Position numbers and translations under genes: made by a program
Notes under the pieces: generated by a model
The model's input: the letters and a program-made list of their open reading frames with translations, nothing else
What the model was told of the DNA's origin: nothing
Database searches by the model: none
Shown: one piece after another, positions 7,716-31,276 of the stretch
Layout: every line of letters begins with the position of its first letter
Numbering within the stretch: the first letter of the stretch is position 1
Source of the DNA: an uncultured Verrucomicrobia subdivision 3 bacterium
Lineage (GTDB): Bacteria; Verrucomicrobiota; Verrucomicrobiae; Limisphaerales; UBA11358
NCBI GenBank assembly: GCA_903847285.1
Contig: CAINDH010000218.1
Location: 1-32,779 of the forward strand
Length of the DNA: 32,779 bases
Reading direction: 5' to 3'

Positions 7716-8624
7716 TCAGAACACTTCCGCATTCAGCCCGGCAATCTGTCGGACGGCCCGGGCTATTTGAGAAAGCGCCTGCAACGGCAAATGTCCCCAT
7801 TCGGATTGAATGCTTGGTCTGGCTGCCGAATATATTTGCACTTGTGAAATCTGTGCGCCGGCATCCTTCAATTCCTTCAGCCTTTGCGCATATTGTTTGA
7901 TTTCTTCGAACGGCGGCTCTTCGCCTTGGATGGCTGGGAATAAACTTTGTATGATGACCGGACGTCGGTTTCCGATGAGCCGAATATTGGCGAGGATTTT
8001 TTCAAGCGGCACGTCCGGGCGGTTAACCTTGTCGAGGAAAGGCTGGGTGCCGCCGTCAAGCTTGATCCAGACCTCGTCGGACATGGTGAGAGATTCTAAG
8101 CCGCGCAGGACGAGCGGTCGATCCAGGCCGGTGCCGTTAGTGATCAAGACGATTTTAAAAAAATTACCGAGGGCGCGCACGCGAGCGACCGCTTGCATTG
8201 CCTCGATAAAATTCGGTGCCAGGGTCGGTTCACCGTCGCCACTCAATGCGATGTGGCGCAGATTAAAGAGTTCTTCCGGTAACGACTGATACCAAGGATG
8301 TCGGCGGAGTTGCCCCTGCTGCACGAAATCGATTGTCCGGCGCAGTTCCGTCGCCATCACATCTACGAGCAGCTCGCTTTCAGATGCTGGCAGGCGTCGG
8401 TCCACTTCGCAGTAGGAACAGTCGAAGTTGCAATGCCGGTCAGGATTCATATTCACGCCGAGCGAAAGGCCGCGCGCTCGTGCGGAAATCACCGCATAGA
8501 CAAACCGGTTCCCAAGAAAATCCCGGGGGCGGTCAAAGGCGGTCGCGCGCGGCGGCACGTGATGAACCGGTGACGGCTTCCGGCTCAACGGCAAGGCGAT
8601 GGTTGTAGTTTTTAATTCTGCCAC
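7716..8624 (-). CDS. Radical SAM protein, COG0731-type Fe-S oxidoreductase
   Basis: This 302-aa cytoplasmic protein has the radical SAM CxxxCxxC cluster (C65, C69, C72 in DRHCNFDCSYCEVDRR), followed by a SAM-binding ALSGDGEPTL segment and a partial TIM barrel. The SGDGEPTL sequence and early cluster position match the COG0731 group, which includes wyosine-type tRNA-modification homologues and many uncharacterised members. The substrate cannot be read from the sequence. The N-terminal 45 residues (MAELKTTTIALPLSRK...) lie before the conserved core, so a slightly later start is possible. It is convergent with the DHOD-like gene, with only 25 nt between the stops, and has no evident operon partner. 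Confidence 0.85.
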   Translation of the reverse strand: MAELKTTTIALPLSRKPSPVHHVPPRATAFDRPRDFLGNRFVYAVISARARGLSLGVNMNPDRHCNFDCSYCEVDRRLPASESELLVDVMATELRRTIDFVQQGQLRRHPWYQSLPEELFNLRHIALSGDGEPTLAPNFIEAMQAVARVRALGNFFKIVLITNGTGLDRPLVLRGLESLTMSDEVWIKLDGGTQPFLDKVNRPDVPLEKILANIRLIGNRRPVIIQSLFPAIQGEEPPFEEIKQYAQRLKELKDAGAQISQVQIYSAARPSIQSEWGHLPLQALSQIARAVRQIAGLNAEVF

Positions 8625-8916: not shown

Positions 8917-11241
8917 CTACGGTTTGTCGCCGACATGGATGCGGTAATCCTTAATCCGCCCGCCCGCCTTTTCGTCGCCTTGCCGCGGGGTGAAGCGGAA
9001 GCCGCCAATGATTCGCGTGGCGCCCAAATCTAGAATCAGCCAATGCGGATGATCTGGTTTTTCCGCGCCCCATTGCGTGTGCCAGAAGTTAGCGGTCTGG
9101 CCGTCAATCGCGTTCTCGGCCGTGCCGTCTTCCTTCTCGCGCTCCTCGCTGTCCACGCCCGCAATGGTCCAGCCTTCCGCGCTCAACGCTTTGCCCGTCG
9201 CGTCGAACAACGCGATCTCAGCGATGGCGGCATATGGATGGTTATCATGCGCGTTCAAGGATTCGATGGCGAAGTAACGGCCACGCGCTGGCTGGGCAAA
9301 CTTGATCTCCTGCAACGCCGTTCCGGGCGCGAATGAGGCCGTGTGAACTACCGGTAGGACTTCCAGTTGCACTTTTGCCTTGCCGCGACTGCTGCGCGAG
9401 AAATCAAGCTTGGGCCGCAATTCATTCAATCCCGGCGCATCGAGCGCGGCGATAGCGGGCTGTTCCGGTCCGAGCAAATCCAGAATCACAATTTCGTTCG
9501 CACCGGCTTTCAACCACGGGCCGGGCACATACATCGTCTGCTGCGGGCCGATGTTCCAATAGCGGCCGAGGTTGTGTCCGTTGACCCATGCGAAGCCTTT
9601 GCCCCACGGATGCATGTCGAGGAAGCAGTCGCCTGGCTTCGTCACGTTCACCGTCGCGCGATAGAACGCGGGGCCATTTGGCTTCGCGTCCGAGTATTTC
9701 AAACCCGCGAGCATCTTGTCATCGAGTGGAAGATTAAAAATTTCCCAACCGGTCAATGTCTCGCCGCCCAACGTCACCGGGCCGTGAATGCCTTTGCGGT
9801 CGTGGACTTCCGGACCGAAATTCACGCGGCCCATCGCTTCCACCAAAATATCGAGCGTCGCCGCTTCCGGACGCGCGGGCACTTTTACTTCAAAAGTCTG
9901 CGAGCGCCGATCTGTAAAGCCAATCCGAGCGCCGTTAACAAACACCTGGCCGATGTCGTTGATGGCTTTCGCTGCCAACGTCGTTGACGGGCCGGCGGGA
10001 ATTGTTTTGCGATACACGATGCAGCCGAACTTCTGGTCATACGCCTCAAAGTTACGCGGCTGCTCATCAGCGCGCGATGCGGGCAGGTTGGAGAAGAGTG
10101 GCGCAAATTCCGTCACCGTGGTTTGGGGAATGCTGATGAGCGCATTCTTCACGGGCGGCTCGGGAATGGTTTCGCCGGGCAGCAAATATTTTTGGAAGAG
10201 CGCGCGCGTCTTGAAAAACTTCTCCGTCGGCCAGCCCGCTTCGCTGATGGGCGCATCGTAATCGTAGCTCGAAGTATCCGGTTTGAACGGACGATCCGCG
10301 CCCGTTCCAAAGCCAAAAGTCGTTCCACCGTGCGCCATATAAATGCTGAACGATGCGCCAATCTTAAGCATGTATTCTAGGTCGGTGAGATATTTTTGTT
10401 CATTGCCTAGGTGATGCGGCGCGCCCCAGGTGTCGAACCAGCCGGGATAAAATTCGCCGCACATCAGCGGGCCTTGCGGGAGAATTTTTCGCAACATCTT
10501 GAACGCGCCCTCGGGATCGCTGCCGAAGTTCACCACGGGAAACAAGTCGGCGCGATTACCGTCCTTCAAATGATCTTTGGGGTTACATGAGAACAGTGGC
10601 ACGTCGAAGCCAGAATCCTTCAGCACCGTGCGCAGTTCGCCCATGTATTCCGCGTCCTTGCCGTAGAAGCCGTATTCGTTTTCCACCTGCACCATGAGGA
10701 TCGGGCCGCCGTGAGTGATCTGTTGCGGGCCGAGCACGCGGCCGACTTCGCGCATATAATTTTTCACCGCGTCGAGATAGCGTGGATCACGCGTGCGAAG
10801 TTGAATGTCGTTATGCTTGAGCAGCCACGACGGGAAGCCGCCCATCTCCCATTCGGCGCAGGCATACGGGCCGGGCCGAAGAATCACCCACAAGCCTTCC
10901 TCTTGCGCGATGCGGCAAAACTGCGCTGCGTCCGCCGCACCCGACCAGTTGAATTCGCCGGGTGTCGGCTCGTGCATGTTCCAGAATAGATACGCGCAGA
11001 CGGTATTCAGGCCCATCGCTTTGGCCATCTGCAAGCGATGTCGCCAATATTCCGGCGCAACGCGTGGCGCGTGGATTTCGCCACAGCGGATTTGGAACCG
11101 CTTACCGTCGAGCAGAAAATCGTTCGTGCCGATAGCAAAGGTATGTTTGGGAGCGCTGAATTTTTTGTCCACGCTGGCGCAACTGGAAATTAAACCGGCA
11201 ACGCTGACAGCCAACATGAGAAAGGTGAGAAATCGTTTCAT
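8917..11241 (-). CDS. Glycoside hydrolase family 35 beta-galactosidase, lipoprotein with C-terminal F5/8-type domain
   Basis: This 774-aa predicted lipoprotein removes terminal beta-linked galactose. It begins with a signal peptide and lipobox LISSC (Cys21). The GH35 barrel covers about 35-345. The acid/base Glu189 sits in VQVENEYG, and the nucleophile Glu263 in CGEFYPGWFDTWG, both at standard positions. Jelly-roll domains follow (about 400-620, with GKGFAWVNGHNLGRYW). The last 130 residues resemble an F5/8 type C (discoidin) carbohydrate-binding domain, with WHTQWG and HWLILDLG. The protein is probably membrane-anchored facing the periplasm or surface. It is monocistronic here, with 292 nt of unassigned sequence downstream. 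Galactan side chains of pectin are plausible substrates given the pectin locus at 22556-28071, but that link is inferred. Confidence 0.93.
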   Translation of the reverse strand: MKRFLTFLMLAVSVAGLISSCASVDKKFSAPKHTFAIGTNDFLLDGKRFQIRCGEIHAPRVAPEYWRHRLQMAKAMGLNTVCAYLFWNMHEPTPGEFNWSGAADAAQFCRIAQEEGLWVILRPGPYACAEWEMGGFPSWLLKHNDIQLRTRDPRYLDAVKNYMREVGRVLGPQQITHGGPILMVQVENEYGFYGKDAEYMGELRTVLKDSGFDVPLFSCNPKDHLKDGNRADLFPVVNFGSDPEGAFKMLRKILPQGPLMCGEFYPGWFDTWGAPHHLGNEQKYLTDLEYMLKIGASFSIYMAHGGTTFGFGTGADRPFKPDTSSYDYDAPISEAGWPTEKFFKTRALFQKYLLPGETIPEPPVKNALISIPQTTVTEFAPLFSNLPASRADEQPRNFEAYDQKFGCIVYRKTIPAGPSTTLAAKAINDIGQVFVNGARIGFTDRRSQTFEVKVPARPEAATLDILVEAMGRVNFGPEVHDRKGIHGPVTLGGETLTGWEIFNLPLDDKMLAGLKYSDAKPNGPAFYRATVNVTKPGDCFLDMHPWGKGFAWVNGHNLGRYWNIGPQQTMYVPGPWLKAGANEIVILDLLGPEQPAIAALDAPGLNELRPKLDFSRSSRGKAKVQLEVLPVVHTASFAPGTALQEIKFAQPARGRYFAIESLNAHDNHPYAAIAEIALFDATGKALSAEGWTIAGVDSEEREKEDGTAENAIDGQTANFWHTQWGAEKPDHPHWLILDLGATRIIGGFRFTPRQGDEKAGGRIKDYRIHVGDKP

Positions 11242-17035: not shown

Positions 17036-17560
17036 TCAATTCGCAGGCGTGGGCGCGGGTTCGTTCTTCCAGTTGAGCAGGAAGATGAGCGCCACGCCGG
17101 TGCAGATGGCGGAGTCAGCGACGTTGAACGCAGGAAAATCCCAGATCTCCATCGTGCCGCGTCGCGCCATGTAAAAATGCAGGAAGTCCACGACGGCGTG
17201 GCGTCCGGGCAGCAGGCGGTCGGTGAGGTTGCCGATGATGCCGCCGAAGATGAGCCCGAACGCGAACTGTCCGAGCAGCCGGTGCGCGCTGAAATGCCGC
17301 CGCGAAAACCACAGCACGACGAGCGCAGCGAGGGCGATGATAGCGAGGAAGAAATTATTGCCGGTGAACAGGCTCCAAGCCGCACCAGTGTTCGCGCGGT
17401 GGGTGAGGTTGAAAAAGCCGGGGATGACGGTGTGTTCTGTGTATGCCGGGATGGTTTTCAACACCAGCCATTTGGTCAACTGGTCGAGCGCAAAAATAAA
17501 CGCCGCCAGCGCAAAGATACGTTGGTTTGGCTTTGTCAAAATGGATTCAGCGGCAGCCAT
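17036..17560 (-). CDS. lspA: Lipoprotein signal peptidase (signal peptidase II)
   Basis: This 174-aa inner-membrane aspartyl protease removes signal peptides from diacylglyceryl-modified prolipoproteins, of which several are encoded in this window. It has four hydrophobic segments (about 15-33, 66-87, 97-112, 148-164). The conserved boxes are ALDQLTKW, FFNLTHRANTGAAWS, GIIGNLTDRLLPGRHAVVDF (Asp125) and FNVADSAICTG (Asp149). Asp125 and Asp149 match the catalytic dyad. The frame is open 19 codons upstream, but ATG 17560 (MAAAESILTK) gives the usual length. It is the first gene of the lspA-rluD pair. The YacP-like gene starts divergently 91 nt away. Confidence 0.95.
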   Translation of the reverse strand: MAAAESILTKPNQRIFALAAFIFALDQLTKWLVLKTIPAYTEHTVIPGFFNLTHRANTGAAWSLFTGNNFFLAIIALAALVVLWFSRRHFSAHRLLGQFAFGLIFGGIIGNLTDRLLPGRHAVVDFLHFYMARRGTMEIWDFPAFNVADSAICTGVALIFLLNWKNEPAPTPAN

Positions 17561-17651
17561 GATAAGTTTTCGGCCGCAAATGTAGCGAAAATGCGGGATT
17601 AAACTATCAAATTCCATTTTCAGTTGTGACGCGAGCCGTTACCTTGCGCGC

Positions 17652-22555: not shown

Positions 22556-23812
22556 ATGAAAAAACTTTTTGCCTTGGCCGTCGCGCTGAACTTGGCTGCC
22601 ACAGTTTTAGCCGCTGAAAAACCTGCGCTCAACGTTCTCGACTTTGGCGCGAAGGGCGATGGCGTGACGAAAGACACCGTCGCGATTCAAAAGGCGCTGG
22701 ACACCTGCGCCGAGTCTGGCGGTGGCACAGTGATGCTGCCCGAAGGCGTGTTTCTGACCGGCAGTCTCGTCATCGGCGCGAACACCACCGTGCAGCTCGC
22801 CCCGCGAGCGAATATTCTTGGCAGCGCGGACATCGCGGACTACCCCGTCATCAACGTCCGCTGGGAAGGCGAGTTTCGCGACGGCCACCGCGCACTGCTC
22901 TCCGCCAGTAACGCTGCGAATGTCACCGTCAGCGGTGGCGCAATTTTTGGCCCGCCGCTGAACCTCGGCAAACTGCGCAATCCTCGCGGCCCCGTGCTGA
23001 TCGAACTCACCAGCTGCACAAATACGCTGCTGGAAAATTTCACCACGCAATATCAGCAGCTCTGGAGCATCCATCCGCTCTACTGCAACAATTTCACCGC
23101 GCGCGGCCTGACCATTCGCTCGGTGAATGCCAACGGCGACGGGATTGACGTGGAATCCTGCGACGGTGTGCTCATTGAGAAATGCGATATCAATACCGGT
23201 GATGATGCCATCGCCCTCAAGTCCGGCCGCGGCCTCGCAGCGCAAAATCTTAACCGGCCCACCCAGAACGTCATCATCCGCGATTCGCGCCTGCAAAGTT
23301 CCATCTACGCGGGCCTCGCCCTCGGCACGGAAATGTCCGGTGGCATCAGCAATGTGCAGGTTTCCGGCTGCGTCATTTCTGGCCGACAAAACGCCATCTT
23401 CATCAAGAGCCGGGATGGTCGTGGCGGCTACATGGAAAACATTTCCTGTGAAAATCTCACCATCCTCAAGTCGCCCACATTCATCGGCATTGACCTGATA
23501 AAAAAAGGCATCCAAGCCACCGACCCTGTGCCCGGCGATGTGGAGAAATGGTCGCGCGTCCAAAATTTCAGCTTCAAAAAAATCCGCGTGCAGGATGTGT
23601 CTGAGCTGATTGCCGGCACGAACATTCCCGCCGCTCGTCCGCTGGATGGCCTGACGCTCTCGGATATTTCCGGCACCTGCGCGCGCGCCATCTCGCTGGC
23701 AAACGTGACGAACGCGAATTTTACAAAAATCCGCGTGACGGGCTACACCGGCGAACTGGTCAGTGCCAGCAACGTTCAAGGTAAAGGCCTCGACGGCACG
23801 GCGGCCAAGTAA
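22556..23812 (+). CDS. Exported glycoside hydrolase family 28 (polygalacturonase-like)
   Basis: This 418-aa right-handed beta-helix enzyme cleaves alpha-1,4-galacturonosyl bonds in pectin. It has a signal peptide (MKKLFALAVALNLAATVLAA) and then NVLDFGAKGDGVTKDTVAIQ, typical of GH28. The catalytic acids are in NGDGID (193-198; Asp195) and GDDAIALKSG (Asp216, Asp217). GTEMSGGISNV replaces the GHG box of endo-enzymes, as in bacterial exo-type members, and IFIKSRDGRGGY carries the substrate-binding Lys. Exo-action on oligogalacturonides is therefore likely, but inferred. It is secreted to the periplasm or beyond. The oligogalacturonate lyase 3 kb downstream suggests joint pectin use. Confidence 0.9.
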   Translation: MKKLFALAVALNLAATVLAAEKPALNVLDFGAKGDGVTKDTVAIQKALDTCAESGGGTVMLPEGVFLTGSLVIGANTTVQLAPRANILGSADIADYPVINVRWEGEFRDGHRALLSASNAANVTVSGGAIFGPPLNLGKLRNPRGPVLIELTSCTNTLLENFTTQYQQLWSIHPLYCNNFTARGLTIRSVNANGDGIDVESCDGVLIEKCDINTGDDAIALKSGRGLAAQNLNRPTQNVIIRDSRLQSSIYAGLALGTEMSGGISNVQVSGCVISGRQNAIFIKSRDGRGGYMENISCENLTILKSPTFIGIDLIKKGIQATDPVPGDVEKWSRVQNFSFKKIRVQDVSELIAGTNIPAARPLDGLTLSDISGTCARAISLANVTNANFTKIRVTGYTGELVSASNVQGKGLDGTAAK

Positions 23813-26605: not shown

Positions 26606-26775
26606 TGCGTGCAATAATGACGGTGAGACGCTGGCGGGGGCAAGTCACGTTATAGTGAAAAATGACAGCGCGCGCCACGCATCGCCAGTTGTGACGATTG
26701 CGCCGCCGCGCGGTTCTGCGAAAATCAGAAACCAAACCCGAACCTCCAACGTCTCTTGCCACGAATCCCCACCCC
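26606..26775. promoter_or_regulatory. Divergent promoter region, phosphoesterase / oligogalacturonate lyase
   Basis: About 170 nt lie between two divergent exported-protein genes and must hold both promoters. The lyase frame is open back to 26698, but that part encodes an Arg/Pro-rich stretch before the signal peptide and is probably untranslated. No operator-like palindrome was clear to me. Confidence 0.35.
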
Positions 26776-28071
26776 ATGAAACGATCATTTTTGTTTTTGC
26801 CCGTCATCGCCGCAGTCTGCCTCTTTCGCGCGCCCCTCGTAGCGGCTGATGCCCCGACCGAATGGATCGATCCCGCCACCGGCCATCGCGTCGTGCAGCT
26901 TTCCACCGAGCCGGGCAGCGAGAGCCTTTACTTCAACCTGAATCCGTTCACGCCGGACGGCAAAAGCATGGTCATCACCACGAGCAACGGCATCTCGCTT
27001 GTGAATCTCGAAACCCGCGCGGTCGAACAGATCATCGCTGGCCGCACGCACATCATCATGGTCGGGCACAAGACCGGACAGATTTATTACGCCACGCGCA
27101 AGATCGAGAACGGCGTGACGAACCAGTGGGTTTGCTCGTTCGATCCCAAGACCAAAGCCGTCCGTGACATCCTCAAGCTTGCGCGCGGCCAGCAGGTTTC
27201 CACCGTCAATGCGAATGAGACATTGCTCGGCGGCACATTCCTCGAACGCAATGACTGGGGCACGAATGATTTCTTTAGCGGTGGCGGCCCGAACCGTCGC
27301 GAAAATGACATCGCCTCCGCCAACGCGTATCGCGGCAAGAAAGGCACGATGATGGAGGAACGCCTCGCCAAGCATTATCCGATGGAACTGTTCTTCTATA
27401 ACATCGCGACCGGCGAGACCAAGCGCGTCAACCGCTGCACCGACTGGCTCGGCCATCTGCAATTCTCACCCACCGATCCGACGCTGATGATGTTCTGTCA
27501 CGAAGGACCGTGGCACAAAGTGGATCGCATCTGGACCATCCGTGCCGACGGCTCGGATCTGAAACTCATCCATCAGCGCACGATGATCATGGAGATCGCC
27601 GGGCACGAATTTTTCAGCGCCGACGGCAAGACTCTCTGGTATGACCTGCAAACTCCGCGCGGCGAGGATTTCTGGGTCGCTGGCTACGAAATCTCCAGCG
27701 GCGCGCGCACGTGGTATCATTTGCAGCGCGACGAATGGGGTGTGCATTTCAACGTGTCGCCCGACGGCACTTTATTTTCCAGCGACGGCGGCGATGACAA
27801 GATGGTCGCCCACGCCGACAACGGGAAATGGATGTGGCTTTTCCGCCCCGAACTCATCGAAGACCGCTCCGCCGGAAATGTGGAAACGAAAAATCTCATC
27901 CAGACCGGTGTGTTCCGTTCCGAGAAACTCGTCAATATGGCCAAGCACGATTACGCGCTGGAACCAAACGGAATGTTCTCGCCCGACATGAAGTGGCTCA
28001 TCTTCCGCAGTAACATGAGCGGCGCGAACCAGGCTTACGCGGTGGAATTGAAGCGGGCGGACGGGAAATAA
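26776..28071 (+). CDS. ogl: Oligogalacturonate lyase (PL22 family), predicted exported
   Basis: This 431-aa beta-propeller lyase splits short oligogalacturonides by beta-elimination. ATG 26776 opens a signal peptide (MKRSFLFLPVIAAVCLFRAP, cleavage about residue 24 before DAPTEW). Family features are EWIDPATGHRVVQLS, LGHLQFSPTDPTLMMFCHEG, WHKVDRIW, EIAGHEFFSADGKTLWYD and WGVHFNVSPDG. Enterobacterial Ogl is cytoplasmic, so the signal peptide suggests oligomers are cut in the periplasm here. The His/Gln set that holds Mn2+ in known Ogl cannot be fully placed: the VHFNVS stretch shows only one His. It likely follows the GH28 enzyme in pectin breakdown. Confidence 0.87.
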   Translation: MKRSFLFLPVIAAVCLFRAPLVAADAPTEWIDPATGHRVVQLSTEPGSESLYFNLNPFTPDGKSMVITTSNGISLVNLETRAVEQIIAGRTHIIMVGHKTGQIYYATRKIENGVTNQWVCSFDPKTKAVRDILKLARGQQVSTVNANETLLGGTFLERNDWGTNDFFSGGGPNRRENDIASANAYRGKKGTMMEERLAKHYPMELFFYNIATGETKRVNRCTDWLGHLQFSPTDPTLMMFCHEGPWHKVDRIWTIRADGSDLKLIHQRTMIMEIAGHEFFSADGKTLWYDLQTPRGEDFWVAGYEISSGARTWYHLQRDEWGVHFNVSPDGTLFSSDGGDDKMVAHADNGKWMWLFRPELIEDRSAGNVETKNLIQTGVFRSEKLVNMAKHDYALEPNGMFSPDMKWLIFRSNMSGANQAYAVELKRADGK

Positions 28072-28117: not shown

Positions 28118-28747
28118 TTAATTTTGCGGCACAACATTAATGCGGAAGGCGCCATTGCGAGGGCCGCCCTGAAAAAATGACCAGCTTCCCTGACCATGCT
28201 TCAAGGCAAAGCCTTTCGCCAAATTCTGATTGTTGTAGCACCAGGAGCAAGTGGTGTCGCTGTCGGCCGGTTCCACGCACAGCCAGTATTTGGTTCCGGC
28301 AGTCAAAACCGGATGGGTTTCGGACACCAGCACCAGATGCCCGCCCTTGCCAAAGTCGGAACTGGAGATTTTCAAAAAACTTTCCAGCGATTTCCCCGGC
28401 AGGCCGTTCTTATCCTCGGCCACGGTGACATTGATGGAACCTTTTCCCATCATGGCCAAATCAACTACATTCAATGGGCCGGAGTCGGTCGGGACAAACC
28501 ATTCCGCCTGTCCACGATATCCGGCTTGGCCGTCACTCATGACCGCCCACGCAACCGCTTTGTCAAACTTGTTGCGCTTGTCAAACGAGTTAAAAACATC
28601 AACTCCCGGTGGCGGCGGCGGTTTCTGCTCCTTGACCGGCGTTTTGGAGTCGGCAGGCGGGGTCAGCTCTTTATGTTTTGAGCAACCGGTGAGGGTCACA
28701 ATTGCAGCCACGGTCAACGCGGCGGGGACAAGGATAAATATCTTCAT
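28118..28747 (-). CDS. Putative lipoprotein downstream of the membrane sigma factor
   Basis: This 209-aa protein has a lipoprotein signal peptide ending in TLTGC (Cys22), then a Lys/Pro-rich linker with five consecutive prolines (about 25-48). A beta-rich domain (about 50-209) follows, with SINVTVAEDKNGLPGKSLES and LTAGTKYWLCVEP. This pattern resembles the choice-of-anchor R type exported domain seen in many verrucomicrobial and planctomycete proteins. The identification is tentative. It starts 27 nt after the stop of the sigma/delta-60 gene on the same strand, so the two are probably one transcript. It could present or bind a ligand for the sigma protein, but that is inference from position only. 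Confidence 0.72.
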   Translation of the reverse strand: MKIFILVPAALTVAAIVTLTGCSKHKELTPPADSKTPVKEQKPPPPPGVDVFNSFDKRNKFDKAVAWAVMSDGQAGYRGQAEWFVPTDSGPLNVVDLAMMGKGSINVTVAEDKNGLPGKSLESFLKISSSDFGKGGHLVLVSETHPVLTAGTKYWLCVEPADSDTTCSWCYNNQNLAKGFALKHGQGSWSFFQGGPRNGAFRINVVPQN

Positions 28748-28774
28748 GTAATTTGGTATGGAATATTTTGCCAG

Positions 28775-31183
28775 TCAAGGCGTGGCAATCCGGTAAAACC
28801 GGGTCGGATGATTTTTCGCGTCAGTGTCACGAAAGCTGCCATTGCCGCTGGCGTCTGACAGATTGGTGCTGATGTTGCTCCAGTCGGCGGCGTCCAAAGT
28901 ATCTTTGGCCTGAAGGATGTAGGCCTGTTTTGGACTGCCAGTAAATTGAATCATGGCAACGCCATCCTTATAATTCATCGCCGTGATCAGAATCGTTTCG
29001 GTTGGCAAAGCGACAGGCGACGGGGCAGTCACATTGGTCGCCGCAGGTGCGGATTTTGCGGTCAGATGATAGACCGGGAAGTGACGATGCGTTTGCAATT
29101 CCTCCAAACTGATAAATGGATTCTTGAATGTTGTGTCCAGCGAACCATCCGGATTGAGCCGCGCGATATGCTGGCAATTGACGCCATTGACGACGGTGAA
29201 CGGCCCACAGATGACAATACGCCCGTCTTCCTGAATCGCGATATCCATGACCAGCCGTCCGTATCGCATGGCCGTCACCTCACAATGAAAACTGTGATCA
29301 ATCTGCCCATCCACATTCAACCGAATCAAGCCGGGGAAATCTTCTCCGTTCATTTTTCCAAAACCACCAGCCACCAGAAACTTTCCGTCCTTTAGCCGTT
29401 TAATGGTGATGCCGCCGCGCCGATCGGTTTCATACTGGTTGGTGAAACTGAAATCTGGCCGCCAGTTTTTATCAAAGCGCATCAACCGGCCGGGAGCTGT
29501 GAGGCTGCCGTTGATGAATTCAACCTGCATGCCGAGAAGCGCGCCGCCATCCGGCAACCGCACCGCGACCCGGCATAGCTCAAACGGAACTTCGGCGAAA
29601 AGTGCTTTGAAAACCACGGCGGCATCGGCAGCGGAAGGTTGTTCGGCGCAATCTTCAAATGGCAACTGTCCGGAAGGCTTGACGAAAGGTCGCCGACTGG
29701 CCGGCGTCGTGCGATTCCAGTCCACGGGCTTGTGCCCCCACCAATTCCCCCAAAATCCAGCGCCTTGGAGCGTCCAGATTAAACCCGTATAAGGCGGGAA
29801 CACAGAAGTCGGATCATTCGTGGCTGTCAGAATTAATTTGCCGGTCGGATCAAGGCGATAAACCGTGAGCGGGTTTTGGGTCATCACGGCCACTGAACCA
29901 TCGCTCAAAGCGGCGGCGGGGTAAGTGCCGCCGGGAAGATAAGTCCGCCCCAAAGCCGGAGCGTTTGAATTGGCCTGGTCTGTCATCGGGACAAACGATT
30001 CGTCCACGCTGCCGTCGGGAAGCAATCTCGCGTAACCGGGACGCGGCTTGCCATTCACGGAATCGAACAGCCCGGACATGAATAATTTTCCGTCCCGTAG
30101 GAGATCAACGTGCGCCCGACTGGAATCATTCCCGGGAAATTCTACGCGACAATAGAAACTGCGATCCAAAGAACCATCGGCATTGAGACGGATTGCGCCT
30201 CGCTCAAAATAGCCAAGCCGTCCCGATTGCGGATCAATGAAATTTCCGAACAAACTGGCAGCAACGACAATTTTCCCATCCGGTTGCACCAATACTCCTC
30301 CCGGCGGAGAATCCAGTGACATAAAAGCCGTATCTGTCATCACCTCGCGCATAACTGCCACCGGTTTGCTGACCGGAACTATTAATTTAGGAGGCTCCTC
30401 GCGTAACACGGCCGTCGCCACCAATGCACCGCCCGTGATTGTCGCGACGATACCCAGATTGATGAGAGGTTTATATTTGGCCCAAGCCAGCGCCTTGAGC
30501 GTTCCCTGCACCAGGCCAGCGGCTGAAATGGCTGCGGTTGCACCTTTCATCGCCGCTGTTGCCACGGTCGTAACCAATCCAACGGGTGCGGCTTGAATTG
30601 CATTTGCCGCAAGCGCGCTCGCAATAACCGTGGCCGTCAGCGTCACGCCGCGTCTGGCAAAGAACGTCCGCAACTTTTCCACCGCCCGGTTCACGCGCAT
30701 CTTGGCGGCGTCTTCGCTGCCGCCCAGCGCCGCGCCGACTTCCTTCAGGCTCTTGCCGTCGAAATATCGCAGCACGACGGCGTGCCGGTCGGTTTCGCTC
30801 AACCCGGCCATCGCATCGTCCAGCAGCGGGGCAATGTGTGGCCACGGATCGGCGGCGGATTCATCGGATGAAGTTTGCATGAGGACCTCCTGTTCGCGCT
30901 GCGCCCGGCGGATGTTCCCGCGGATGAGCGTCACCGCCGTGAGCCGCGCGGTCTGATACAGCCAGCCGGAGAGGATGACATTTTTGCCGAACGTCCCGGC
31001 CTTGCGTGCGAGAATGACGAAGACAGCCTGCGTGATTTCCTCGGCGGAATGGGGATTGCGCCCGTGTCGCAGCGCGACGGAGTAAACCTTGTTGATGTGC
31101 CTCGCAACGAGTTCGGCGAACGCCGATTCGTCGCCGCTTTCGGCAAATTCCCGCAGCAGGGCGTTGTCATCCAGTTCGTGCAT
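28775..31183 (-). CDS. Transmembrane ECF sigma factor fused to delta-60 repeat domain
   Basis: This 802-aa protein has sigma-70 region 2 (about 18-95; EEITQAVFVILARKA, GWLYQTARLTAV), region 4 (about 122-175; GLSETDRHAVVLRYFDGKSL and SEDAAKMRVNRAVEKLR), an Ala-rich segment (180-230) and a transmembrane helix (about 240-260). About five to six delta-60-like repeats follow (295-690; for example VQPDGKIVVAAS...RLNADGSLDRSF and IQEDGRIVICG...RLNPDGSLDTTF). A final domain (about 728-802) ends in TRFYRIATP, like tails of secreted verrucomicrobial proteins. The sigma part would be cytoplasmic and the repeats extracytoplasmic, making a one-piece sensor. ECF sigma factors with long C-terminal extensions are common in this phylum; a delta-60 sensor is unusual. 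A GTTACC box 30 nt upstream (31218-31213) could be an ECF -35. Confidence 0.88.
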   Translation of the reverse strand: MHELDDNALLREFAESGDESAFAELVARHINKVYSVALRHGRNPHSAEEITQAVFVILARKAGTFGKNVILSGWLYQTARLTAVTLIRGNIRRAQREQEVLMQTSSDESAADPWPHIAPLLDDAMAGLSETDRHAVVLRYFDGKSLKEVGAALGGSEDAAKMRVNRAVEKLRTFFARRGVTLTATVIASALAANAIQAAPVGLVTTVATAAMKGATAAISAAGLVQGTLKALAWAKYKPLINLGIVATITGGALVATAVLREEPPKLIVPVSKPVAVMREVMTDTAFMSLDSPPGGVLVQPDGKIVVAASLFGNFIDPQSGRLGYFERGAIRLNADGSLDRSFYCRVEFPGNDSSRAHVDLLRDGKLFMSGLFDSVNGKPRPGYARLLPDGSVDESFVPMTDQANSNAPALGRTYLPGGTYPAAALSDGSVAVMTQNPLTVYRLDPTGKLILTATNDPTSVFPPYTGLIWTLQGAGFWGNWWGHKPVDWNRTTPASRRPFVKPSGQLPFEDCAEQPSAADAAVVFKALFAEVPFELCRVAVRLPDGGALLGMQVEFINGSLTAPGRLMRFDKNWRPDFSFTNQYETDRRGGITIKRLKDGKFLVAGGFGKMNGEDFPGLIRLNVDGQIDHSFHCEVTAMRYGRLVMDIAIQEDGRIVICGPFTVVNGVNCQHIARLNPDGSLDTTFKNPFISLEELQTHRHFPVYHLTAKSAPAATNVTAPSPVALPTETILITAMNYKDGVAMIQFTGSPKQAYILQAKDTLDAADWSNISTNLSDASGNGSFRDTDAKNHPTRFYRIATP

Positions 31184-31276
31184 TCATATAGAAATGCCGC
31201 CAAACGGAGAAAGGTAACAGACTTTTTTCAGCGCCGTAAACATGGCGTGCAGCGATGCGTTGCCGCACGCGGTCGC

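Follow-up and report, generated by a model that had tools for sequence, protein, structure and literature searches.

A stretch of 32,779 nucleotides from an uncultured Verrucomicrobia subdivision 3 bacterium (contig CAINDH010000218.1 of assembly GCA_903847285.1; hereafter the window) carries a gene that joins a complete extracytoplasmic function (ECF) sigma factor to a delta-60 beta-propeller in a single polypeptide. Taken as a whole, the gene is best explained as a membrane-anchored one-component sigma switch, an explanation that we regard as fairly likely. It belongs to a large family that keeps the sigma-hinge-membrane module and varies the C-terminal domain, with up to 30 paralogues per genome. 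We further propose, tentatively and with slightly less than even confidence, that the family constitutes a plug-in system of such switches in Verrucomicrobia subdivision 3, with up to tens of paralogues per genome, in which a sigma domain and its matched promoter could be joined by recombination, at the end of sigma region 4 or shortly beyond it, to other membrane-sensor cassettes. A residue-base code (residues 158, 161 and 162 with a -35-like box, residues 78 and 85 with a -10-like box) would let self-amplifying, partly insulated switches run in parallel, some of them driving nearby pseudopilin genes. The parts of the window gene are as follows.

28775-31183 (-), one-piece ECF sigma factor of 802 residues that carries a membrane segment and a delta-60 propeller (Pfam, NCBIfam, AlphaFold2)
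30914-31111 (-), Sigma70 region 2 (PF04542, Pfam 2.8e-10), residues 25-90, containing T78 and T85, coupled to the -10-like box
30668-30814 (-), Sigma70 region 4 (PF04545, Pfam 1.1e-10), residues 124-172, containing D158, K161 and M162, coupled to the -35-like box
30464-30643 (-), hinge, residues 181-240, in which a motif of the QAAP type is conserved and the end is rich in K; a switch in relationship falls inside about 180-220
30407-30463 (-), predicted membrane segment, residues 241-259, Kyte-Doolittle hydropathy (KD) 1.79
29114-30325 (-), delta-60/DUF5122 beta-propeller, residues 287-690
28781-28996 (-), C-terminal beta domain, residues 730-801, strands in the AlphaFold2 model, conserved in the delta-60 branch

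The domain assignments agree with the initial annotation, which had described a complete ECF sigma factor with regions 2 and 4 joined to delta-60 repeats. A hidden Markov model search found the sigma and DUF5122/delta-60 profiles in one protein: PF04542 (residues 25-90), PF04545 (124-172) and TIGR02937 all scored above cut-off, DUF5122 matched in five stretches (Pfam 8e-39, 132 bits), and the NCBIfam profile delta_60_rpt (TIGR02608) matched at 4.1e-26, with 90.6 bits against a cut-off of 76.5. The AlphaFold2 model (mean predicted local distance difference test score, pLDDT, 82.9) consisted of sigma helices, hinge helices, a long helix at 219-250, the propeller and the C-terminal beta domain, with residues 241-273 below pLDDT 50. 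A sequence search of solved structures matched the sigma part only; fold searches chiefly probe the propeller, and rows up to 1 Z apart are read as ties. The annotation had also reported no separate anti-sigma gene, and Pfam scans covering 17 of the window's open reading frames (ORFs) contained no anti-sigma family.

Of 7994 candidates scored in the protein search, 3557 reached an E value of 0.001 or lower, and the best 120 of these were listed. Most close full-length relatives carry the same four Pfam families as the window protein; because, among the first 77 homologues listed, 67 have 740 residues or more and most share these families, the sigma-membrane-propeller arrangement is not a chance fusion. 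With a profile threshold of 1e-120, at least 20 of 320 genomes of the order (that of genome G002) matched, a lower bound since three candidates were scored per genome. These 20 comprised four with sigma and propeller (one of them, G001, cut at its very end), three truncated at a contig end or gap (G008, G042, G245), two with a propeller and no sigma domain (G022, G037), and eleven that matched through the sigma part.

The size of the family became apparent within single genomes. At 1e-25, 30 members were found in G109, 23 in G028, 13 in G165, 12 in G069 and none in G022, and 11 of the 12 genomes searched, most of them chosen for having matches, contained at least one; at 1e-10, G001 contained 13 and G004 contained 12. 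The fetched loci yielded 116 frames and 111 sufficiently complete proteins, whose C-terminal parts fell into 28 single-linkage BLAST groups (53, 16, 5, 5, 4, 3, 2, 2 and 2 members, plus 19 singles), the largest possibly inflated by coiled coils. Sigma regions 2 and 4 were present in all 108 proteins scanned, of 112. Among the matches listed, which cover 25 of 39 families, the C-terminal domains included DUF3738 (15), HEAT (8), carboxypeptidase-regulatory (4) and RCC1 (3), and also LamG, TPR, PDZ, DUF3466 and LTXXQ. Members also occur in clusters, with five one-piece sigma genes within 8 kb on G109 contig 113 and five within 12 kb on G028 contig 12.

Immediately upstream of the window gene lies a promoter-like motif.

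31190-31221 (-), bipartite motif ending 6 nt before the ATG: -35-like box TCTGTTACCTTT (31221-31210), 8-nt spacer, -10-like box GGCGGCATTTCT (31201-31190)

Its position weight matrix score of 20.9 is the best in the window. All 110 family genes with enough upstream sequence carried the same kind of motif, TGTYNNNTTT followed by a spacer of 7 or 8 nt (107/110) and GGCGGNNATTTA, and in 90 of the 110 it stood 6-10 nt before the start codon. Scores across these genes had a median of 23.0 and a minimum of 9.8, compared with a shuffled maximum of 6.9, and where the spacer was 7 nt long (67 genes), almost no information lay in the flanks except for an A-rich stretch just upstream. When 517 kb of loci were scanned on both strands, 107 of the 122 sites scoring above 15 preceded a sigma paralogue; in a control of 5000 random pieces, the 144 pieces scoring above 15 comprised 123 sigma promoters and 21 others, several of these being pseudopilin promoters. 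A strict pattern gave 8 sites in the 320 genomes (2 before sigma genes, 3 before pseudopilins and 3 unclear) and none in the control, while missing most motif variants, the window's own promoter included. A genome-wide regulon drawn up with a loose pattern in four genomes was set aside, as 33 sites stood against 17 in the reversed control and about half may be chance. The second-best match in the window (7892-7923, +, score 17.1) lies inside ORFs on both strands and may be chance. In the loci L110 and L136, each with five one-piece sigma genes within 8-12 kb, every copy has a motif of its own. ORFs made of short degenerate repeats follow the motif in L176 and L229, and one lies beside a free delta-60 gene in L062 (4074-4676).

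Changes in the bases of the motif go together with changes at residues of the sigma domain that is encoded behind it. Mutual information was calculated between protein columns and motif bases for 103 proteins, the window's among them, filtered to less than 85% identity (effective number 33). For the -35-like box the top residues were 162, 161, 165 and 158, and 11 of the 15 top residues lay in region 4, which makes up 51 of the 204 columns, compared with at most 8 in 100 permutations. Residue 162 was coupled to base 5 of this box with a z of 11.5 (at most 7.0 in 100 permutations): K at this position went with C at base 5 in 72 of 72 proteins, and M, V, Q or T went with C in none of 31. For the -10-like box the top residues were 85 and 78, with residue 85 coupled to base 5 at z 9.2 (at most 6.2 in permutations) and 7 of the 15 top residues in region 2 (80/204 columns). 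Twelve flanking bases, taken as a control, gave z values up to 4.1 and favoured no domain. On a tree whose alignment omitted the columns in question, the residue 162 and base 5 traits both changed 13 times, and all five independent pairs on supported branches agreed (13 pairs over all branches); for residues 85 and 161 almost no pair contradicted the coupling. The window conforms to the pattern, pairing M162 with T, K161 with A and C, and T85 with C, and its sensor relatives L001 and L002 pair K162 and C85 with C and A at the corresponding bases.

Several results weigh against reading these couplings as recognition. The share of region 2 among the top residues for the -10-like box was matched or exceeded by permutations (mean 5.4, maximum 10), so that only the top z is notable there. 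The sign test for residue 162 on supported branches gave only p 0.0625, and agreement was 4.5 of 5 pairs for residue 161 and about 3.7 of 5 and 2.8 of 4 pairs for residue 85, the remainder being mostly pairs that showed no difference. Because promoter and sigma gene are contiguous, shared descent explains part of the covariation, but it does not account for the fact that each box has its strongest couplings on a different DNA-binding surface. Since the motif precedes each gene and co-varies with that gene's own sigma residues, it is best read as a promoter recognised by the sigma domain encoded behind it, and each gene very likely activates itself.

Comparison of the window protein with its relatives revealed two histories in one gene. 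Its sigma part is most similar to proteins that have no propeller, with 89% identity to P0088, 86% to P0083 and 84% to P0090; among 73 delta-60 relatives, only P0001 has a comparably close sigma part. Taken over the 37 listed proteins with another C-terminal part, sigma identity is 66-89% in 36 and 52% in the last. Identity to seven such other-sensor proteins (P0088, P0083, P0090, P0080, P0094, P0084 and P0079) is 75-100% per 20-residue step up to residue 180, mixed at 181-220 and low from 241, whereas the delta-60 relatives P0002, P0003, P0004 and P0006 show 25-70% identity as far as residue 180 and rise to 70-100% from 281. The loci L001 and L002 show the same division, with sigma parts 50% and 49% identical to that of the window and sensor parts 77% and 71% identical. 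Because the identity pattern swaps between other-sensor proteins and delta-60 relatives along the sequence, the window gene is, by its sequence relationships, a recombinant, its sigma and membrane-sensor parts evidently rejoined between the end of region 4 and the middle of the hinge (about 180-220). That the delta-60 sigma factors form one clade by their sigma part was considered and rejected, the tree (of proteins picked by overall search score and thus no random sample) having four label changes, at least two of them forced by supported branches.

The switch that we favour would work as follows. The ECF sigma domain would lie in the cytoplasm, tied by the hinge and one membrane segment to a periplasmic beta-propeller, and at rest the hinge and tether may keep it from RNA polymerase. 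The propeller would read a ligand or the state of the envelope and free the sigma domain, most plausibly by regulated intramembrane proteolysis as in IutY of Pseudomonas putida; the freed sigma domain would then transcribe its own operon, which here includes a lipoprotein gene, and in relatives might also transcribe some nearby pseudopilin genes. In IutY, the one-piece membrane sigma factor that has been characterised, cleavage is carried out by Prc and RseP (PMC9249621; this and the later statements on published systems follow excerpts of the cited papers). In the window protein, a cut near residues 240-260, as the initial annotation suggested, may occur. Alternatively, the sigma domain could stay active at the membrane without cleavage, the propeller altering its access to RNA polymerase by conformation alone. 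We give this roughly one chance in four: the cleavage of IutY speaks against it, while the QAAP-type hinge motif, kept across different sensors, would suit an intramolecular clamp, and the factors ECF41 and ECF238 act by conformation (PMC8999054). The presence of M50 proteases lends the proteolytic switch little weight, as they occur in all six related genomes but also in all 14 controls.

The operon partner was located 27 nt behind the sigma gene on the same strand, across a gap at 28748-28774.

28118-28747 (-), choice-of-anchor R lipoprotein, 209 residues, lipobox LTGC (by eye)
28136-28477 (-), choice-of-anchor R domain, lipoprotein residues 91-204 (NF041539, 39.7 bits against a cut-off of 30, 4.7e-10)

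A lipoprotein gene at this distance had been annotated, as the ORF, its lipobox and the choice-of-anchor R match bear out, and it is probably on the same transcript as the sigma gene. The annotation had gone on to treat it as a linked component, and here the neighbourhood survey told otherwise: in all four related genome loci where the sequence extends downstream (L002, L061, L064 and L065; in the last two, the contig does not reach the sigma part), the gene was absent behind the homologues. At 1e-25, lipoprotein relatives (42-44% identical) were found in 3 of the 320 genomes of the order, and in G002 the relative and the sigma gene are on different contigs. A conserved sigma-lipoprotein partnership was consequently rejected as a general rule, the gene being absent at 4/4 loci and rare in the order. 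Two metagenomic relatives of the sigma protein point the other way, since P0001 and P0125 come from contigs of equal size (17673 bases), as do P0032 and P0131 (21046 bases), which suggests that the lipoprotein gene accompanies P0001 and P0032. The link therefore exists but is patchy. A role for the lipoprotein as a regulatory partner dedicated to the propeller would fit the position and strand of its gene and its suggested presence beside P0001 and P0032, whose sigma parts differ; given its absence at the genome loci, its rarity and its separate contig in G002, we think it improbable.

Among lipoprotein homologues, P0135 carries its choice-of-anchor R domain behind a stretch 43% identical, over 136 residues, to a pseudopilin of the motif-bearing type. 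P0136, P0149 and P0150 are also of the choice-of-anchor R type, with a zinc-ribbon-like N-terminus and a membrane segment in place of the lipobox. A gene of the signal peptidase II type, a lipoprotein-processing enzyme, lies in the window at 17036-17617.

The one-component switch presupposes that the chain crosses the membrane once. A membrane helix had been placed at 240-260 by the initial annotation, and a hydrophobic segment does lie at 241-259; the equivalent position reaches KD 1.6 in 87 of 111 paralogues, and a later segment of KD 1.8 or more was found in only 3 of 111. Net charge, taken over 35 residues on each side of the membrane segment, averaged +2.85 before it and +0.52 after it, and the charge before exceeded the charge after in 88 of the 111 paralogues. 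Delta-60 propellers that have no sigma domain begin, by eye, with signal-peptide-like sequences (L062, 4555-6273, -; L063, 4578-6380, +; P0076); those in L062 and L063 are 41-43% identical to the window propeller over its length. Because of the charge bias, the few later segments and these starts, the sigma domain is probably inside and the propeller, as sensor, outside the membrane. Counting against this, the window segment is only moderately hydrophobic, its model confidence is low, and 24 of the 111 paralogues fall under KD 1.6 at this position. The window protein also has a second, weaker hydrophobic stretch at 186-204 (KD 1.68), where KD 1.8 is reached in 14 of 111 paralogues, and if both stretches crossed the membrane the propeller would be cytoplasmic. 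We consider such a two-pass topology quite unlikely, given the positive charge between the two segments, the signal-peptide-like beginnings of the free propellers, and the LTXXQ, LamG and carboxypeptidase-regulatory types among the C-terminal domains of the family, which are mostly extracytoplasmic. The annotated idea of an envelope-sensing membrane sigma factor is thus retained for its one-piece anchoring and its probably extracytoplasmic propeller, and dropped for the lipoprotein. In the hinge, residues 181-205 (about 30569-30643) carry a motif of the type [SA][VI]QAAP that is conserved in paralogues (SVQAAP in 35, AVQAAP in 16); it sits behind a short hydrophobic stretch and by eye resembles an internal signal-peptidase site.

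To examine what else the freed sigma domain might transcribe in relatives, we turned to the pseudopilin genes, of which one genome alone gave 89 matches. A pseudopilin gene lay within about 1 kb of the sigma gene in 12 of 104 loci, and among 112 sigma genes, of which 103 had enough sequence and 84 had an ORF behind them, that ORF was a pseudopilin in 9. Twelve of 66 sigma genes had a pilin match no more than 4 kb away, compared with 3.6 expected, in a count that entered 134 of the 201 pilin matches of four genomes and took tandem genes singly. Eight of 50 distinct pseudopilins with enough upstream sequence carried the motif (scores 22-31), but several had been retrieved through the motif or are neighbours of a sigma gene. 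Of those fetched by pilin similarity alone, 1 of 30 carried it, this being the query gene itself, so most pseudopilins lack the motif; the minority that carry it are mostly close to sigma genes of the family. In G003, a motif-bearing pseudopilin gene ends about 0.8 kb upstream of a delta-60 sigma gene, and TTGTCGGTTTT occurs in the -35-like box of each. Motif searches gave no pseudopilin in the window. The motif's presence before some pseudopilin genes might indicate that another regulator binds it in place of the family sigma domains, but the promoter spacing of the two boxes and the location of the top couplings, in the region 4 helix for the -35-like box and at region 2 residues 85 and 78 for the -10-like box, make this very improbable.

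Pairs of one-piece sigma genes also lie within pseudopilin clusters (G028 contig 77, 14875-27036; G009 contig 124, 2-7942). Elsewhere in the window, genes at 22556-23812, 26698-28071 and 8917-11241 resemble functions of pectin and galactoside breakdown (GH28, oligogalacturonate-lyase-like and GH35, respectively).

Literature searches found no paper joining the delta-60 repeat with a sigma factor, and for ECF membrane extensions in Verrucomicrobia no title describing such a family, in a search that did not cover the main ECF classification paper and so leaves absence from print unproven. For pseudopilin-rich bacteria, the pseudopilin link is a first lead on what such switches control, and the residue-base pairs predict each member's promoter preference from its sequence. 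Free delta-60 (DUF5122) proteins share the propeller and differ in having a signal-peptide-like N-terminus and no sigma domain. As for one-piece sigma factors, neither IutY, ECF52 nor ECF57 fits the window family, because the FecR domain, the zinc finger and the ECF57 cysteines are absent. ECF57, with an example from Singulisphaera, likewise has a repeat-bearing C-terminal extension, with WD40-like repeats, but has two conserved cysteines that may link regions 2 and 4 (PMC8999054), whereas residues 1-180 of the window protein contain no cysteine. ECF52 (SCO4117 of Streptomyces), described together with ECF48 and ECF53, resembles the window protein in that a long C-terminal extension includes a membrane region as well as an outer domain, and positive autoregulation and proteolytic release have been proposed for it; ECF52, a group said to be confined to Actinobacteria, differs in having a zinc finger ahead of the membrane (PMC5826349, PMC8999054), whereas the window protein has no Pfam zinc finger match between region 4 and the membrane and no cysteine in residues 181-260. 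IutY (ECF243) is the closest known system and has the same plan, a single chain that links a cytoplasmic sigma domain, through one membrane domain, to a periplasmic part (PMC9249621, PMC8999054), and the excerpted text gives it as the only experimentally characterised sigma factor of the proteolysis type (PMC8999054). Its periplasmic domain is FecR-like and answers to the receptor IutA, whereas the window protein has a DUF5122 propeller and no FecR-like domain among its Pfam matches up to E = 1. Where IutY has this single sensor, paralogues of the window family carry other domains; the family keeps the sigma, hinge and membrane parts and swaps the outer domain, so that its natural swaps can show what holds the sigma domain inactive.

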